From Chthonomonas sp. (lineage in GTDB: Bacteria > Armatimonadota > Fimbriimonadia > Fimbriimonadales > Fimbriimonadaceae), in assembly GCA_016788425.1 (NCBI GenBank), contig JAEURQ010000001.1:62001-126000 (forward strand): 64,000 nt of DNA. Reading direction: 5' to 3'. The notes under the pieces are model-generated. The model saw nothing but the letters and a program-made list of their open reading frames with translations, was not told the DNA's origin and did no database searches. Shown piece by piece: positions 53,909 through 62,040 of the stretch; position 1 is the stretch's first letter; the number at the start of each line of letters is the position of its first letter. Made by a program: the position numbers and the translations under genes.

Positions 53909-55768
53909 GTGCGAAAGCGCAAACTCACCGACCAAGTGCAAGAACGCTTGGCGAACCTGCCCACCAAGCCCGGCTGCTACATCTATTGCGGCGAGGATGG
54001 CAATGTGCTGTACGTGGGAAAGGCGATCAATCTGCGGTCGCGGGTGCGTAGCTACTTCCAAGATTCCGCGCGCCACAGCGCGCGCATTGAGCGCCTAGTT
54101 CACAAGGTGCGCGACATCGAAACGGTGATCGTGGCGAGCGAGCTCGAAGCGCTGGTGCTGGAATGCAACCTCATCAAGCAGCATCGCCCGCCGTACAACG
54201 TGCGGATGCGCGACGACAAAAGCTACCCCTACGTGATGATCACGAAGGAGAACTTTCCGCGCGTCCTGTTCACCCGCAACCCCCGTCGCGGCGCGGGGCG
54301 CGTGTTCGGCCCGTTTAGCAGCGCATGGGCGGTGCGCGATTCGCTGCAGTTTCTGCACAAGACCTTCCCGCTGATTCCGTGCGGCAAAAGTTGGAGTGGC
54401 CGCGACGAGCAACGCCCCTGTCTTTACTATCATCTGGGCCAGTGTCTTGCGCCGTGCGCCGGATTGGCCGACCGCAAGCAGTACGAGGAGATCATCGCCG
54501 AGGTCGAGCGGTTTTTGGCGGGGAAGCACGACGACCTGGTCACCCGCATCGAAAAGCAGATGCGCAAGGCTTCGGAGGACCTCGATTTTGAGCTCGCGGC
54601 CAAGCTCCGCGACCGCATTCGAGCGGTGGAGCAGGTGCAAGAGCGGCAGAAGGTGCTCTCCGCCGACGGCAAGGACCGCGACGTCATCGCCGTTGTCAAC
54701 GACGAGCGCGGCGCGGCGGTGCAGATGCTCTACATCCGCAATGGCAAGCTCATCGGTACCCGGCAATTCATTCTCGATGGCGCGCAGGAAGCCTCGCCGG
54801 GCGAAGCCGTTCAAGAGTTTGTGAAGCAATACTACGCCCAAGCGCCCGAGGTCCCGCGCGAGGTTTTGCTGCCGGTCGAAATTGAGGAGCGCCAAATCGT
54901 GCAGGCGTGGCTTCGCCAAAAGCGCGGTTCGGCGATCACGGTGGAGGTTCCGCAGGGCGGCGAGAAGCTGCGCCTGCTGGAGATGGCCGCCGACAATGCC
55001 GAGCAGGCGCTCACGAGCTATCGGCAAGAAGCTGAGCAAAAAGAAGCCTGGGTCGAAGAAGCGACAACACAACTCGCCGAGGTGTTGGGGCTGCCGACTC
55101 CGCCCATGCGCATCGAGGGCTACGACATCTCGAACGTGCAGGGCACAGCCCCGGTCAGCAGCATGGTGGTAGTCGAAAACGGCGAGGCCGCGAAATCGCA
55201 GTATCGCAAGTTCGCGATCAAGTATCAGCCGGAGACGCCGAACGACTTTGCGATGATGAACGAGACGCTCATGCGACGTTTGCGCCGGTTCTTGGATGGC
55301 GATCCCAAATTCGCCCCGCTGCCCGACCTCATCATGATCGACGGCGGGCAAGGCCAGCTCGGCGCGGCACTCAAGGCTCGCGACGAACTCGGCCTCACGG
55401 TACCCATGGTCGGCCTGGCCAAGCGTTTGGAACTCATTATCGTTCCGTTCGCGGTTGGCGAAGGGAAGTATGAGTACAGCGACGTTGAGTTGCCGATGAT
55501 GTCGCCCGGCCTGCTGTTGCTTCGCCGCTTGCGCGACGAGGCGCACCGATTCGCGCTTTCGTTCCATCGCAAGGTTCGCAGCAAGCGCATGACCGGTTCC
55601 GCGCTAGAGGAGATTCCGGGCGTGGGCCCGCGCCGGTTGCGGCTGCTATTGCGAACGTTCGGGTCGCTCGACGCGATCTCAAGGGCGAGCGTGGATGACC
55701 TCGCCGCCGTCCCCACCATGACGAAGGGGCTGGCGGAGAGGATCCACAATATCCTCAGCGAAACCTAG
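53909..55768 (+). CDS. uvrC: UvrABC system protein C
   Basis: 619 residues from GTG. UvrC makes both incisions in nucleotide excision repair. The GIY-YIG domain (KPGCYIYCGEDGNVLYVGKA), the zinc-type Cys cluster (CLYYHLGQCLAPCAG), a UVR motif (DFELAAKLRDRIRAVEQV), the RNase H-like endonuclease domain (EGYDISNVQGT, DLIMIDGGQGQL) and the C-terminal HhH (IPGVGPRRLRLLLRTFGSLD) are all present. A TAGACT at 53887-53892 is a possible -10. Its stop TAG shares a CTAG with the converging aminotransferase. Confidence 0.97.
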   Translation: MRKRKLTDQVQERLANLPTKPGCYIYCGEDGNVLYVGKAINLRSRVRSYFQDSARHSARIERLVHKVRDIETVIVASELEALVLECNLIKQHRPPYNVRMRDDKSYPYVMITKENFPRVLFTRNPRRGAGRVFGPFSSAWAVRDSLQFLHKTFPLIPCGKSWSGRDEQRPCLYYHLGQCLAPCAGLADRKQYEEIIAEVERFLAGKHDDLVTRIEKQMRKASEDLDFELAAKLRDRIRAVEQVQERQKVLSADGKDRDVIAVVNDERGAAVQMLYIRNGKLIGTRQFILDGAQEASPGEAVQEFVKQYYAQAPEVPREVLLPVEIEERQIVQAWLRQKRGSAITVEVPQGGEKLRLLEMAADNAEQALTSYRQEAEQKEAWVEEATTQLAEVLGLPTPPMRIEGYDISNVQGTAPVSSMVVVENGEAAKSQYRKFAIKYQPETPNDFAMMNETLMRRLRRFLDGDPKFAPLPDLIMIDGGQGQLGAALKARDELGLTVPMVGLAKRLELIIVPFAVGEGKYEYSDVELPMMSPGLLLLRRLRDEAHRFALSFHRKVRSKRMTGSALEEIPGVGPRRLRLLLRTFGSLDAISRASVDDLAAVPTMTKGLAERIHNILSET

Positions 55769-56889
55769 GCCGAGTAGAACCCGCGAATCGTCTCGGCGAC
55801 GTAGGCAACGTCGTCGTTGGTCATCGTCATGTTCATCGGAATCATCAGGCAGCGCTCAAAGAACCGCTCGGTTTTGGGCAGGCTCACCTTGAAGCCAAGG
55901 CCCGGCCATTGGTGCACCGCCTTGCCCGACCATTGGATGAGCGTGCCGATATTGTTTTCGCCCAAGTGTGCTTTAAGCTCGTCGCGGCGGTCCGCTTCAA
56001 TTTCGTAGTTTTGGTAAACGTCAAAGTGGTCCGGGTCGGCGTCGGGCGCGGGCGGCAAGGTCAGTTGCTCCATGTCGCCCAACAGCGACTGGTAGAGCCC
56101 GGCGATTTCGCGGCGACGCGCGATGACCTCGTCGTAGGTCGCGAGTTGGAAGTTAAGAATCGCGGCCTGCATGTTATCCAGGCGCGAATTGAAGCCCCAC
56201 GTGCGAATCTCGCCATCCGCGCGGCGACCGTGGTCGCGAAGCATGGTCACCTTATCGGCGACCTCGTCGTCGTTGGTGACGAGTCCGCCGCCATCGCCGA
56301 AGCACCCGAGCACCTTGGCCGGATAGAAACTAAACGTGCCGGCCGCGCCGAAGGTACCCGCCGAGCGACCCTTCCACTTGGAGCCAAGTCCTTGCGCGGC
56401 ATCCTCGACAATGAACAAGCCGTGCTGATCGCACACTGCCTGAATCGCGTCCATATTGCAGGTGCGGCCGTTCACTTGGACGGGGCAAATCGCCTTGGTT
56501 TTGCTGGTGATATGGCGCTCCAGATCGGTGTGATCCATCATGTGGTCGGCGCCCATTTCCACCGGCACCGGCACTCCGCCCGCCATCGCGATCGCGCTGG
56601 GCGTGGCCACCATGGTGTGGCTCGGGAACAGGACTTCGTCGCCTTGCTTGAGGCCCCCGGCCATCAGGCCAATCTGAATCGCGTCGGTGCCATTGGCCAG
56701 GCCAAACGCGTGCTTTGCGCCGACAAACTTCGCAAGGTTTGCCTCGAAATCGAAGACATCCTTTTGCATGATGAACGCGCCGCGATCGAGCACGTCGCCC
56801 ATGATCTCCATGAACTTTTCGCGGTCCTTGGCAAAGGCACCTCGGTAGTTAAAAAAGGGAACGCTGGGCTTTTGGGGAGCGAGAGACAT
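55765..56889 (-). CDS. DegT/DnrJ/EryC1/StrS-family aminotransferase
   Basis: 374 residues. A PLP-dependent sugar aminotransferase that converts a keto-nucleotide sugar to an amino sugar. The Schiff-base Lys192 lies in FSFYPAKVLGCFGDGG; IVEDAAQGLGS carries the cofactor Asp. The substrate is unknown, and no sugar-nucleotide dehydratase is adjacent. A TAAAAT -10 box lies 7 nt before the ATG on the minus strand. Confidence 0.92.
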   Translation of the reverse strand: MSLAPQKPSVPFFNYRGAFAKDREKFMEIMGDVLDRGAFIMQKDVFDFEANLAKFVGAKHAFGLANGTDAIQIGLMAGGLKQGDEVLFPSHTMVATPSAIAMAGGVPVPVEMGADHMMDHTDLERHITSKTKAICPVQVNGRTCNMDAIQAVCDQHGLFIVEDAAQGLGSKWKGRSAGTFGAAGTFSFYPAKVLGCFGDGGGLVTNDDEVADKVTMLRDHGRRADGEIRTWGFNSRLDNMQAAILNFQLATYDEVIARRREIAGLYQSLLGDMEQLTLPPAPDADPDHFDVYQNYEIEADRRDELKAHLGENNIGTLIQWSGKAVHQWPGLGFKVSLPKTERFFERCLMIPMNMTMTNDDVAYVAETIRGFYSA

Positions 56890-56894
56890 GCCCT

Positions 56895-57800
56895 CTATTT
56901 TACTTGGTTGACCGGCGCGGGCGACACAATTGGCGCGGGCTGGCTCGCCCGGTAGATGCCGTATCCGGCGAGAGCCATCGCGATGACGGCGACAAAGGCC
57001 GTCATTCCGCGCTCAGCGGGTGCCATGCGGAACTCCTTCCAGTTGACGATGAGGCACGTGAGGCCGATGGGGAGCAGCGCCGGAAGTTGCCCCAGGCTCA
57101 CCGGCCCCAGCGAGAACTCGCCGAGGTACAGCACGATCAGCATATAGGCCAACAGCGTGATGCACGTCCACTTGAGCGTGGCGCGCGCGCGCATGTCGAA
57201 CCGAAAGATCGTGACGAACAGCAGGCCGATGATGAAGAAATCGGCGGGGCCAACGTACGCCGCCGGGCCGATGCCGAACGTGGGAATTTGGTACGCCGCC
57301 GCCTGAAACACCTCCGGCTTTTGCTTAAGAATGACCTGCGTAATCGAGGTCGGGTTAAAAATCAGGAACATGTCGAACCCGGCGAGGAAAATCGCGATCG
57401 GCGGAATCAGGTTCTTGTCTTTGATGATCGAGGCGACGAGGCCGCCGAGACCGGTTGTCCAGCAACTCAGCCCGGCCATGGCCAACGATTCCAGCACGAC
57501 CTTGCCGAAGCTCGGCTGCTTGCCCATGGCCTGACTCGCCAACACGCCAAGCACATGCAGCGCCACTCCGACGAGGAACAGAACCAACGAGCGGCTCACG
57601 TTGAGCCACCGCGCGGCGACAAATGTGGCTACGATCGGCCCGATCAAAAAGAGCGCGGTGACCAGCACCTGACCGATGTGCGCCACCACGGGGTTGGTGA
57701 CGGCTATTTGGTCCACGATGAGACGGAGCACAAACAGACCCCCGATGAGGGCGAAGTAGCGACCCCACTCGGGCCGGGGCAAAGTCTCGGCGGATTGCAC
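56895..57800 (-). CDS. Polytopic membrane protein with presenilin/SPP-like motifs
   Basis: 301 residues from GTG, with about eight or nine transmembrane helices. Three spaced motifs resemble presenilin/signal peptide peptidase intramembrane aspartyl proteases: FD at 142-143 (canonical YD), GPAD at 184-187 (canonical GxGD) and PAL at 240-242. The interval from the second Asp to PAL (53 residues) matches the spacing in archaeal and human members. The second Gly of GxGD is Ala here. It lies 5 nt upstream of the DegT gene on the same strand and has its own -10 box 6 nt before its start. Confidence 0.68.
   Translation of the reverse strand: MQSAETLPRPEWGRYFALIGGLFVLRLIVDQIAVTNPVVAHIGQVLVTALFLIGPIVATFVAARWLNVSRSLVLFLVGVALHVLGVLASQAMGKQPSFGKVVLESLAMAGLSCWTTGLGGLVASIIKDKNLIPPIAIFLAGFDMFLIFNPTSITQVILKQKPEVFQAAAYQIPTFGIGPAAYVGPADFFIIGLLFVTIFRFDMRARATLKWTCITLLAYMLIVLYLGEFSLGPVSLGQLPALLPIGLTCLIVNWKEFRMAPAERGMTAFVAVIAMALAGYGIYRASQPAPIVSPAPVNQVK
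56897..56902 (-). promoter_or_regulatory. -10 box of the DegT aminotransferase gene
   Basis: TAAAAT on the minus strand, 7 nt before the ATG at 56889, overlapping the 3' end of the membrane protein gene. Confidence 0.5.
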
Positions 57801-57812: not shown

Positions 57813-57900
57813 CCGCCCTAAAGAAACCGCGATAAATGCCCAAGAATCTGAATTGCACCCGTTTACTCGGAGGCAAAAAACCTCAAGTGGATTCTTAGGA

Positions 57901-59421
57901 ATGGATACCGAAAAGTTCGAATGTCTCGCCGCGCAAGCGTTGGTTGGCCGCTATCTGGCGGGTGACGACCTGCCGGCGGAGCAACAATCCGAGTTGGAAA
58001 CGCACCTCGCGGCGTGTCCGGATTGCACGACCTTGCTTGAGGAAAAGCGCGCAGAGCTCATGCGAGAGCTCGCCAACAACAACGACTCGGCCACGCCTTC
58101 GCCCGCCACTGCCGAGCCTATTTCCGACGGAAACGAGGTCCTCAGCGCCGATCAAATCGCGGCGATGATGGATGCCGCCAACGCCGCCCCGGTCGCTGAT
58201 CCACTCCCGGATGTCGATGACAACGCTGTATTGACGCCGGACCAGATCGCGGCGATGATGGACGCCGCGAACGCGGAGCCGGTCGCCGACAATACCGCTC
58301 TGAGCGCCGACCAGATTGCGGCCATGCTCGAACCCGAACCCATCACCGCCACGAGCAACAGCGCGGTGGAGATTGTTTTCGACGAAGAAGAATTGCCCAC
58401 GGCGAACGTCGCCGCCGCTCCTGAGCCCGTGGTCGCCGCGGCCCCCGCGCCGGTGACTCCGACCGTGAGCGACGCCGAAACCGACGCGATTTTGAATGGC
58501 GGGATTGACGATTCTCACCTCGACGATTTGCTCGCCAACATTCCGCTACCCGTCGCCGCTCCGGTGGTGGAGGAAGTTGCGGTGGCCAACGAAGACGCCA
58601 TTCCGGTGGTGGCCGAAGCCCCGGAAGAGCCGAAGGAAGAAAAGCCCAAAGTTCGCATCCGTGTGGAAGGGTTGCCTATTCTGCTTGGCAAGAATCTCAA
58701 GACCATGGCCTATTCGGCCAGCCTCGGTTTGGTGCTGGTCGCCATGACGACCTTCGCCAAGAATCCGAGCACCATTTTCGGTGAACGCGCAGTGCCGCCG
58801 ACAGATGGCGCTGCCCACGGTCAGGAAGCTCCGAAGACTGACGAACACAAGCCCGACGAGCACAAACCCGACGAGCATGCCGAACCCAAAACTGATGCTC
58901 ACGGTGAAGAGCCGAAAACCGATGAGCACGCTGAGCCCAAAACGGATGAGCATGCGACGGAACCAAAAACGGACGAGCATGCCGAAGAGCCGGTGAAAAC
59001 CGACGCTCACGCCGAAGCCGATCCGCACGCCGAAGAAGACCCCAGCGCCGCCATGAAAGCGCGCATGAACAAGTTTGCCAGTGCCTCGGAAAAGGCGGCT
59101 GCTGCCGAAACCGCTCACGGCGATGAGCACGCTCCGGAGCCAAAGAAGGCGCCCAAGGCCACGCCGAGCGTCTCGCAGGAGAACAGCTACATGGTTGCTC
59201 GCGAAGGCAGCACAACCCACAAACCGCAAACTGGCCACAAGAAGGAAGTCAGCCACAAACCGACCGCGCCGAAGACCAGCGTGCGTCGCAAACCGGCCAC
59301 CTCTCACGCCGCGCCCAAGCGAACGACGGCCAAAAAGCCCGTCGCCAAAAAGCCGAGCGCACCGAAACCCTCAGGCGGCGGACTCAAGATTTACGACGAA
59401 CACGGGAATCCGATCAACTAA
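57901..59421 (+). CDS. Zinc-finger membrane protein with repeated FliM-like motifs and acidic/His repeats
   Basis: 506 residues. An N-terminal anti-sigma-type zinc finger (Cys8, His35, Cys39, Cys42) is followed by three near-identical LSADQIAAMM boxes at 81-90, 111-120 and 134-143, with two looser copies near 190-215. The boxes resemble the LSQDEIDALL CheY-binding peptide of FliM. One membrane helix lies at about 266-286. An extracytoplasmic part has nine TDEH/PDEH/TDAH repeats and a very basic Pro/Lys tail. No sigma factor gene is adjacent. It is probably cotranscribed with the STN-domain gene 4 nt later. Confidence 0.68.
   Translation: MDTEKFECLAAQALVGRYLAGDDLPAEQQSELETHLAACPDCTTLLEEKRAELMRELANNNDSATPSPATAEPISDGNEVLSADQIAAMMDAANAAPVADPLPDVDDNAVLTPDQIAAMMDAANAEPVADNTALSADQIAAMLEPEPITATSNSAVEIVFDEEELPTANVAAAPEPVVAAAPAPVTPTVSDAETDAILNGGIDDSHLDDLLANIPLPVAAPVVEEVAVANEDAIPVVAEAPEEPKEEKPKVRIRVEGLPILLGKNLKTMAYSASLGLVLVAMTTFAKNPSTIFGERAVPPTDGAAHGQEAPKTDEHKPDEHKPDEHAEPKTDAHGEEPKTDEHAEPKTDEHATEPKTDEHAEEPVKTDAHAEADPHAEEDPSAAMKARMNKFASASEKAAAAETAHGDEHAPEPKKAPKATPSVSQENSYMVAREGSTTHKPQTGHKKEVSHKPTAPKTSVRRKPATSHAAPKRTTAKKPVAKKPSAPKPSGGGLKIYDEHGNPIN
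58833..59042 (+). repeat. Tandem acidic/histidine repeats in the zinc-finger membrane protein
   Basis: About nine imperfect copies of a four-residue (T/P)D(E/A)H unit with Glu/Pro/Lys linkers, encoded by near-identical codons. The protein segment could bind divalent metals; DNA copy number could vary between strains. Confidence 0.75.
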
Positions 59422-59425
59422 CCTC

Positions 59426-60070
59426 ATGAAGACTCTAACCAAGTTCATTGCCCTGCTCGCGCTGACCATGTCGGCCGGCGCTGGGCTCGCTCAAGCCGAC
59501 GTCAAGATTGACCAGGGCACGATCACCATCAGCTCGCGAGGCCGCGACGTCCGTGAGATTCTGCACGACCTCTTTATTCAAGCGGGCCGCAGCTACGTGG
59601 TCGAGCACAACGTCAAAGGCTCGCTTTTTCTCGCTCTGCGAGGCATGGAGTTTGACGAGGTTCTCGAGGTGATTTGCAAGCAGTCGAGTTTGGACTACAC
59701 GCTCAAAAACGACATCTACTTCTTCACGCAAAAGGCGGGCAACAAGCCCAGCCCGCACGCGCCGACGACGGCAGCCCCGGCGGCCAAACCGACCGGTCGC
59801 CTTAACGCAACGGTGCTCAAGAAAACGGTGAACACCAACTTTCTGCGGACGGACCTGCGCACGATTGCGGCGGAACTTGGCAAGCAAACGGGCGTGACGA
59901 TTACGATCCACGCGGACGTGCCGAAGTACGCGCTCGACCTCGTGCTGAAGAAGTCATCGCTCGGTTACGGCCTCAAGATGATCACCGAAGCCCTAACTCT
60001 ACAAACCGTGTTCACCGAGACCGGCACGATCAATCTCGTCCCGGCGACCGCGAAAACGGACAAACACTAA
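59426..60070 (+). CDS. Exported STN-domain (secretin/TonB N-terminal) protein
   Basis: 214 residues with a signal peptide (MKTLTKFIALLALTMSAGAGLA). Two STN-like folds are visible: ISSRGRDVREILHDLF with FDEVLEVICKQSSLDY and, after a Pro/Ala linker, RTDLRTIAAELGKQTGV with YALDLVLKKSSLGYGL. This domain is found at the N-terminus of secretins and TonB receptors; here it stands alone, so it may be a periplasmic partner of a secretin. It follows the zinc-finger gene by 4 nt. Confidence 0.8.
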   Translation: MKTLTKFIALLALTMSAGAGLAQADVKIDQGTITISSRGRDVREILHDLFIQAGRSYVVEHNVKGSLFLALRGMEFDEVLEVICKQSSLDYTLKNDIYFFTQKAGNKPSPHAPTTAAPAAKPTGRLNATVLKKTVNTNFLRTDLRTIAAELGKQTGVTITIHADVPKYALDLVLKKSSLGYGLKMITEALTLQTVFTETGTINLVPATAKTDKH

Positions 60071-60267
60071 GCGCGCCAAAGCGCTCGGATTCCTGACCCG
60101 GAAAGGAAGGCCCCCGCTAGGAGCATGATGATGCTCATCGGCGTGGGGCCGTCTTCTTGTTTCCAAAGCTGCCATCCGCCGCTGAGGCTGAGCACACCGC
60201 AGGCGACCAGCAGAATGTTCACGGCGCGCCACGAGAACATGCGCCATCGGGCAAAAAACCGCCTCAC
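60067..60267 (-). CDS. Small two-helix membrane protein, uncertain
   Basis: 66 residues from GTG (or 57 from an internal ATG at 60240), with two hydrophobic helices (about 15-33 and 44-60) joined by a short polar loop. Its stop converges on the STN gene with a 4-bp overlap. The gap holds nothing else. No family is recognised and there is no strong start signal. Confidence 0.42.
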   Translation of the reverse strand: MRRFFARWRMFSWRAVNILLVACGVLSLSGGWQLWKQEDGPTPMSIIMLLAGAFLSGSGIRALWRA

Positions 60268-60317
60268 TTTCCGAGTTTTACCGTTTGGCTAAGATTCCGC
60301 GCAAAACGCGCCAACAA

Positions 60318-60323
60318 TAAACT
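60318..60323 (+). promoter_or_regulatory. -10 box of the diguanylate cyclase gene
   Basis: TAAACT lies 7 nt before the ATG at 60331. AAGGA sits immediately against the ATG and is too close to act as a Shine-Dalgarno, supporting a leaderless start. Confidence 0.55.
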
Positions 60324-60330
60324 GCAAGGA

Positions 60331-62040
60331 ATGGCAAAACAAACCCCGAAGATTCCGGACGAGCGCAAACAGGCGCGGCTATTGGGCTATCTCAGCATCC
60401 TGGCCACGGCAACCCTGATTGCGAGTCTCGCGGTGCTCGGCCTGACCACGCTTTGGTTCAATCGAACCAGCCACAGCCAAGCCAAATTCCTCACCCTCTT
60501 GGAGCGACAACACGCCGGGGCCGAACGCCTGAGCAAGCAAGCCATGGTCGTTTCGGAATCGCGCCGATCGCCGCGCACTCGCGGCGTCGCAGTAACGCCC
60601 AAGTACGGCGCCAAGACCCTCGACAAGTTCGTGAGCGAACTCGGCGAGTGGCAAAGCCGCCAAAAGATTTTAGTGCTGGGTGATGCCAGCATCGGGCTCG
60701 AAACGCCGCCCAGCACCTTGTTTGGCGCGGCTTTCGCCGAGAGCGACAAGTATTACGCCAAGCTCGTCGAGGGCTTTACCTTCCTGCGCGAGAACCCGAC
60801 CGCTGACGGCGACACGCCGGCCTTGCGCTCGAAACTCGCCGAGATGGCCAAGGTCACCGACCCGTTCCGCGACTCGCTGCGCAAGGTCGCCGACGTCATG
60901 GAAGGCGAAATCAAGAAGCGCGACGCGCTCTACGCCAAGATCACGGTCGCGTGCTCATTGCCGATCATCATCACGCTTTTGTTTATCGTGTTCGTGATGA
61001 CCAAGGGCAACCTTGCTCGCCTGAACCGGGCGATTCGTGAGCTCGAAGGCGCGAAGGGCAAACTGGCCGATTCGCTTAGCGAGGCCAAGACGGCGCTTAA
61101 CCTCTCGCACATGGCGAGTCGCCGCTTTGAACAACTTTTTGCCGGTCTGCCGATTGGATGTTTTACCTGCGACGCGCACGGGGTGATCTACGAGTGGAAT
61201 ACCGCCGCCGAACAACTTACCGGTTTCGCGCCGTTTGAGGTCTACATGAAGTCCATTTACGAAACAGTGTATGCCGGCGGCGATCACCAACTGATCCGCG
61301 GCTACATTGACCGCGTGATGGCGGGCGAAGAAATCAACGGCGTCGAGATGGAAGAAACCCGCAAGGACGGAAGCCGCTACACCGCCATGGTGAACCTGCT
61401 GCCGATGAAGGGCGCAAGCGGCGCCATCAGCAGCGTCATCATCGCCAACGCCGACATCACGGCCCTGAAGATTCGCGAGCACGAACTCGCCGAGAGCCGC
61501 GAAGAACTGCGCACGCTCAACCTTAAGCTGACCGCGCTCGCGACCACCGACGGCCTGACCGGCCTCATGAATCACCGCGCGTTCCAAGAGACCCTCGAGC
61601 GCAGTTACAAGGAGACGCAAGTCACGAGCGGCGATCTGAGCCTTGTGCTGCTGGACGTGGACCGCTTTAAGCAGTTTAACGACGAGTTTGGTCACCCCGC
61701 CGGCGACGCCGTATTGCGGCAAGTCGCCAAGATTCTCGCCCAAACCATCGGCGACAAAGGCTACGTGGCCCGCTACGGTGGCGAAGAGTTTGTCGTGATT
61801 CTGCCCGGCATGCCGGCCCAGACCGCGATGCAAGTGACGGAACTCGCCCGAGTAGCTCTGGAGCAGGCGACGTGGCCGAACCGAGAAGTCACGGCGAGCT
61901 TTGGTGTGGCCACGCTTGGCGCGGCCTACTCGCAGCCGAGCGAGCTGATTCGCGATGCCGACCAGGCGCTGTATGCCTCCAAGGCGGGTGGTCGAAACCA
62001 AGTCACGCATTTTGACCAGCGAAAAGAATCGGTGGCTTAA
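60331..62040 (+). CDS. Membrane-bound PAS-GGDEF diguanylate cyclase
   Basis: 569 residues. Two membrane helices (about 20-42 and 206-228) flank an extracytoplasmic sensor. A cytoplasmic PAS domain (FTCDAHGVIYEWNTAAEQLTG, about 270-385), a coiled linker and a GGDEF domain follow (DGLTGLMNHRAF, LLDVDRFKQFND, ARYGGEEFVVI). The intact GGEEF predicts active cyclic di-GMP synthesis. The RxxD inhibitory site before it is absent, so product inhibition is probably weak. Confidence 0.93.
   Translation: MAKQTPKIPDERKQARLLGYLSILATATLIASLAVLGLTTLWFNRTSHSQAKFLTLLERQHAGAERLSKQAMVVSESRRSPRTRGVAVTPKYGAKTLDKFVSELGEWQSRQKILVLGDASIGLETPPSTLFGAAFAESDKYYAKLVEGFTFLRENPTADGDTPALRSKLAEMAKVTDPFRDSLRKVADVMEGEIKKRDALYAKITVACSLPIIITLLFIVFVMTKGNLARLNRAIRELEGAKGKLADSLSEAKTALNLSHMASRRFEQLFAGLPIGCFTCDAHGVIYEWNTAAEQLTGFAPFEVYMKSIYETVYAGGDHQLIRGYIDRVMAGEEINGVEMEETRKDGSRYTAMVNLLPMKGASGAISSVIIANADITALKIREHELAESREELRTLNLKLTALATTDGLTGLMNHRAFQETLERSYKETQVTSGDLSLVLLDVDRFKQFNDEFGHPAGDAVLRQVAKILAQTIGDKGYVARYGGEEFVVILPGMPAQTAMQVTELARVALEQATWPNREVTASFGVATLGAAYSQPSELIRDADQALYASKAGGRNQVTHFDQRKESVA

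Follow-up and report, generated by a model that had tools for sequence, protein, structure and literature searches.

The locus and its surroundings

The window, by which we mean the whole stretch of 64,000 nucleotides analysed here (Chthonomonas sp., contig JAEURQ010000001.1), carries on its reverse strand a gene for a membrane protein with a predicted presenilin fold (Table 1). The protein contains F142-D143, G184-P-A-D187 and P240-A-L242. Searched as a single sequence, the window protein matched nothing significantly in Pfam, NCBIfam or the PDB, and for this reason the family had to be built first.

Table 1. Features of the presenilin-fold gene and of the genes around it (window coordinates)
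Feature	Position	Strand	Remarks
Presenilin-fold membrane protein, CDS	56895-57800	-	301 aa; GTG start; stop within span; nine predicted helices
Asp143 codon, first putative catalytic aspartate	57372-57374	-	in helix 129-148; invariant in 77/77 homologues; aligned with PSEN1 Asp257 (hhalign)
G184-P-A-D187 codons, GxGD equivalent with second putative catalytic Asp	57240-57251	-	aligned with PSEN1 GLGD (hhalign)
P240-A-L242 codons, PAL motif	57075-57083	-	followed by conserved Pro244; family profile places it on PSEN1 PAL
Two short helices (153-160, 162-168) in the position of presenilin TM6a	57297-57344	-	AlphaFold secondary structure
zf-HC2 (anti-sigma-type zinc finger) protein, divergent neighbour	57853-59421	+	one apparent membrane span
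Small secreted-looking protein, directly after the zf-HC2 gene	59468-60067	+	matches FecR C-terminal weakly (E 4.7e-5, narrowly under the cut-off)
PAS-GGDEF diguanylate cyclase	60157-62040	+	N-terminal membrane part
DegT/DnrJ/EryC1 sugar aminotransferase	55765-56889	-	5 bases downstream of the presenilin-fold gene
uvrC-like gene	53909-55768	+	3′ end overlapped by the aminotransferase gene by 4 bases

Co-transcription of the aminotransferase and presenilin-fold genes is possible. The zf-HC2 protein encoded on the other side ends in a long repetitive tail rich in DEHKP/EPKTDEHAE. When 60 loci were compared, with neighbouring genes called by a rough script, the gene order around the presenilin-fold gene proved variable: a glycosyltransferase-like gene precedes it in 11 of the 60 and an HMG-CoA-lyase-like gene lies after it on the opposite strand in 14; these two names were read from the sequence. 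Since neither of these genes adjoins it in the window, no substrate was inferred from them, and no conserved neighbour naming a substrate was found in the loci compared.

A family conserved across Armatimonadota

Of 61 related genomes, 59 yielded a homologue when searched with the window protein, and a profile search extended this to 241 of 255 Armatimonadota genomes, nearly always in one copy. The gene is thus near-universal in the phylum and no isolated rarity. Genomes that lack the gene include G029 and G143 (both 1.5 Mb, genus g29) and all three genomes of genus g102 (G182-G184), a grouping by genus that points to loss in particular lineages. One 7.6-Mb genome (G079) carries two adjacent tandem copies (L097:129-1079 and L097:1104-2009), both of which keep the two Asp residues and GPGD. 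A contig scan with the window protein as a single query returned no relative. The sole probe of other phyla was a scan with an alignment (A4) that amounts to one 9-residue pattern; it returned 39 loci, mostly labelled Armatimonadota or its classes (Fimbriimonadales, Chthonomonadia and others), with some labelled only 'bacterium' and two labelled Actinomycetota.

Conservation was counted over 77 aligned homologues from across the phylum. Six residues are invariant (G119, P134, D143, G184, D187 and E263), and N253 (76/77), P240 (73/77) and L242 (72/77) are nearly so. The protein is therefore a conserved membrane protein with an invariant Asp pair in adjacent helices, an invariant G184 and a near-invariant PAL, and this degree of conservation indicates that the motifs are more than chance. 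The residue before D143, in contrast to the Asp itself, is not conserved; it is mostly hydrophobic (V 26, F 24, I 12, with Tyr in only 3). The Asp alone, and not 'FD', is accordingly a family motif, and on this detail the sequence-only reading needs correction. Downstream of D143, V at +4, P at +7 and G at +9 (64, 52 and 61 homologues, respectively) form a pattern that many homologues have in common with presenilin, where the corresponding segment reads DLVAVLCPKG (CPKGPLR).

At the third position of the second motif (A186 in the window protein), Ala occurs in 48 homologues and Gly in 29. As a whole, the 184-187 motif reads GPAD in 42, GPGD in 13, GVGD in 10, and GFAD and GLGD in 4 each, with four single variants. 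The canonical forms GPGD, GVGD and GLGD hence occur within the family, and the window lineage is an Ala variant inside a family that keeps GxGD elsewhere.

Predicted fold

The window protein was modelled by AlphaFold2 with 47 family sequences (pLDDT 94.3, pTM 0.89). The model contains nine long helices (12-31, 37-63, 68-91, 98-123, 129-148, 185-200, 205-226, 242-252 and 261-286) and two short ones within 153-168; D143 lies in helix 129-148, D187 in helix 185-200, and PAL stands at the start of helix 242-252. The order of Asp143, GPAD187 and PAL240-242 within helices, as claimed from the sequence alone, was confirmed by sequence and model alike, as was the spacing of 53 residues from D187 to P240, which ranges from 43 to 54 across the 77 homologues. 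As a second model, we used a distant GPGD homologue, about 25% identical to the window protein (AlphaFold, pLDDT 88.5).

Foldseek alone gave weak E-values (best presenilin match 0.19 and 0.058 for the two models) and poor superpositions, and VIA-align was run on its candidates. For the window model, the top 16 rows were all PSEN1, SPPL2a or PSH, with Z from 14.4 to 9.6 (PSEN1 14.4 over 187 residues at 2.9 Å, SPPL2a 11.9, PSH 10.2), and the first unrelated row was an ATP/ADP translocator at Z 6.5. The GPGD-homologue model gave 23 consecutive presenilin, SPPL2a or PSH rows with Z from 14.7 to 9.7, adding PSEN2 and inhibitor-bound PSH, before the first unrelated row at 7.1. Helical bundles may reach Z 13-14 by arrangement alone, without kinship, and we argue for real kinship here because the next fold scores far lower, a distant homologue gives the same result and the sequences, as shown below, agree. 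Presenilin, SPPL2a and PSH share the fold predicted here. The comparison with presenilin and SPP structures proposed in the sequence-only reading thus came out in favour of its presenilin/SPP-type protease assignment, as far as models can tell: the fold matches stand far above unrelated folds, the motifs are in register with PSEN1, and no confident match to an unrelated transporter or DUF family appeared for the window protein.

The structural alignments begin in helix 2 at PSEN1 residue 73 (TM1) and stop at PSEN1 residue 451. The end of the range pairs residue 258 with PSEN1 451, which places PAL in register (258-240 = 451-433). Judged from these ranges and this register, helix 2 would lie on presenilin TM1 and the D143 helix on TM6. 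Between them lie only helices 3 and 4, against TM2 to TM5 in presenilin, a shortfall of two helices. Both models predict four helices ahead of the first catalytic helix and a single helix beyond that of PAL.

Sequence-profile similarity to presenilin

When a profile of 41 members was compared with all PDB chains, the best match was the presenilin-1 CTF (2kr6, E 0.021), and the alignment paired both GxGD and PAL with their presenilin counterparts. In an hhalign comparison of the family with PSEN1, whose segments match the PDB entries in full, D143 fell on D257 and GPAD on GLGD with a score of 33.4, against 16.6 for reversed PSEN1; the hhalign probability was only 34%, whereas none of 60 block-shuffled copies exceeded 0.9%. 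Over 255 genomes, the Pfam Presenilin model (PF01080) gave sub-threshold matches only, and 11 of the 30 loci it returned (L116-L145) belong to the presenilin-fold family. These matches fell separately on the first-Asp region (profile positions 144-209) and on the GxGD-PAL region (334-392).

None of the Pfam A22 models (PF01080, PF04258 and PF06550) scored above its curated cut-off on any member. In 61 genomes, neither of the two SPP models (PF04258 and PF06550) detected the family gene, and PF06550 gave not even a sub-threshold match to it there; in a direct scan, PF04258 matched one member weakly (E 0.0025). Since the SPP models miss the gene in these 61 genomes and the Presenilin model returns it below threshold in part of the 255, the profile hits, on which this point rests, suggest kinship to presenilin proper (A22A) rather than to SPP (A22B).

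Compared with the features that define A22, the family shows the presenilin fold on predicted models (top rows Z 9.6-14.7, as against 6.5 and 7.1), two Asp residues in adjacent transmembrane helices (129-148 and 185-200) and PAL about 50 residues after the second Asp (53 in the window protein). The first Asp is not preceded by Tyr in the window protein, which has FD, and Tyr stands there in only 3 of 77 homologues; the second motif is GPAD, with GxGD in 29 of 77; and the nine helices are arranged differently from those of A22, in which five precede the first catalytic helix. The protein belongs to a presenilin-fold diaspartyl family related to A22 and is filed as neither presenilin nor SPP because the literal YD and GxGD, the helix arrangement and the Pfam cut-offs all fail, despite the fold, PAL and the Asp pair.

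Membrane orientation

Averaged over the family, the loops after helices 2, 4, 6 and 8 contain 1.27, 2.03, 2.78 and 2.53 K+R residues, respectively, and those after helices 1, 3 and 7 contain 0.32, 0.84 and 0.44. In the long loop that joins the two catalytic helices (149-184), 42 residues include 3.05 K+R on average, which is sparse. The positive-inside rule would put the N-terminus inside and would leave outside both the C-terminus and the loop that joins the catalytic pair. In presenilin, the loop between the catalytic helices is cytosolic. SPP and SPPL proteases have the reverse topology of presenilin and cut type II proteins (PMC7768045). The active site of the window protein is therefore probably inverted relative to presenilin, that is, SPP-like, if the positive-inside rule is followed; this orientation is not certain, because the loop between the two catalytic helices is of mixed charge. 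With an inverted catalytic pair, substrates would be N-in/C-out helices.

Predicted activity and alternative readings

Taken together, we consider it very likely that the gene product is a presenilin-fold diaspartyl intramembrane protease, belonging to a phylum-wide bacterial branch, with proteolytic activity as a prediction. In the mechanism that we propose, D143 and D187 would activate a water molecule between them, PAL would line the active site, and a substrate helix would be cut within the membrane. The natural substrates may be leftover signal peptides and type II anchors (N-in/C-out), a step less certain than proteolysis itself, and the role may be one of housekeeping or membrane clearance. 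The apparent membrane span of the divergent zf-HC2 protein is rightly oriented for such a protease, and this protein is a candidate substrate, which is only a guess because no similar ORF was found beside the other homologues compared.

In the alignment, the natural Ala of GPAD corresponds to PSEN1 G384A and PSH G219A. Both of these changes lower the rate without abolishing it, and a Gly-to-Ala change at this position slows PSH, presenilin and SPPL2b and leaves them active (PMC2947513). In the GPAD lineages, Ala in place of the GxGD Gly may thus make for a slower or more selective enzyme.

The alternative that survives best, and which we nevertheless regard as improbable, is that the protein is a pseudo-protease, in which the presenilin fold and the two Asp residues are retained to serve as a scaffold, a membrane-protein chaperone or an ion leak. 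The YD tyrosine is missing in nearly all members, Gly has given way to Ala in 48 of 77, and protease activity is a prediction only, all of which would fit such a protein; yet both Asp residues and G184 are invariant in all 77 homologues, which a scaffold would not need, and presenilin-type enzymes carrying the Gly-to-Ala change are merely slower (PMC2947513). There is very little chance that the helical arrangement is a coincidence in an unrelated multi-pass transporter or acyltransferase, as could be read from the matches to human HGSNAT (Z 6.1 and 7.1) and to phosphate transporters (about 6), since both models show a clear drop to these from the presenilin-type rows (Z at least 9.6), and presenilin, with the motifs in register, is likewise the choice of the sequence profile. 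That the protein is a type IV prepilin peptidase (A24) resembling presenilin by convergence is hardly credible: these peptidases are bacterial and carry GxGD, which speaks for it, but no prepilin peptidase model is among the listed Pfam matches of the 47 and 41 members scanned, a PAL motif follows the second Asp, and the fold matches name presenilin, SPPL2a and PSH. PMC7768045 cites a work titled on GxGD in bacterial polytopic aspartyl proteases.

Within the preferred reading of an intramembrane protease, a bolder version would make the family a bacterial sister lineage of presenilin proper (A22A), inverted in the membrane, nearly phylum-wide and mostly in a natural, G384A-like GxAD state. We hold this version to be possible and rather doubtful.

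Significance

Presenilin is an Alzheimer-linked protease, and G384A is an Alzheimer mutation. Presenilin-type proteases are known from eukaryotes and archaea. According to the 2010 report on the archaeal enzyme, their presence outside eukaryotes had not been demonstrated before (PMC2947513). In the literature searched, presenilin and Armatimonadetes were never named together, nor were intramembrane protease and Armatimonadota. If active, the protein described here would offer a small bacterial relative for the study of how presenilin evolved and works, and one that might be made without the gamma-secretase partners Aph-1, Pen-2 and nicastrin. With both canonical and Ala-bearing forms of GxGD, the family amounts to a natural experiment on the position that G384A alters in presenilin, and it adds a new sample to the presenilin/SPP tree. 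A gene family outside the coverage of Pfam and NCBIfam also gains an explanation. Should the sister-lineage reading be true, presenilin-type enzymes would be a core gene of a bacterial phylum and not only a possession of archaea and eukaryotes.

Comparison with known systems

The archaeal enzyme PSH/MCMJR1 of Methanoculleus marisnigri is likewise a prokaryotic, single-chain protein of the same fold (Z 10.2-11.6), with two Asp residues and PAL. Its GxGD is also found in the canonical members of the family, and its G219A form, slower but active, equals the natural GPAD (PMC2947513). It differs in being archaeal and in having YD and GxGD intact, and PF06550, the Pfam model related to it, detects none of the family in 61 genomes.

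With SPP and SPPL2a (A22B, PF04258), the family shares the fold (SPPL2a Z 11.9-12.9), the catalytic anatomy and probably the orientation of the active site, whereas it lacks YD and has fewer helices before the active site.

The closest system by sequence profile is presenilin-1/-2 (A22A, PF01080). Here, the shared features are the fold (Z 14.4-14.7), a total of nine helices, an Asp pair on neighbouring helices, the motifs G-x-G/A-D and PAL and, downstream of the first catalytic helix, a P-x-G segment and short helices. In contrast to presenilin, the window protein lacks the YD tyrosine and the long loop between the catalytic helices, has GPAD for GLGD, and is probably inverted in the membrane; it is short of two helices in the stretch from TM1 to the first catalytic helix, and has extra helices at the N- and C-terminal ends (1 and 9).
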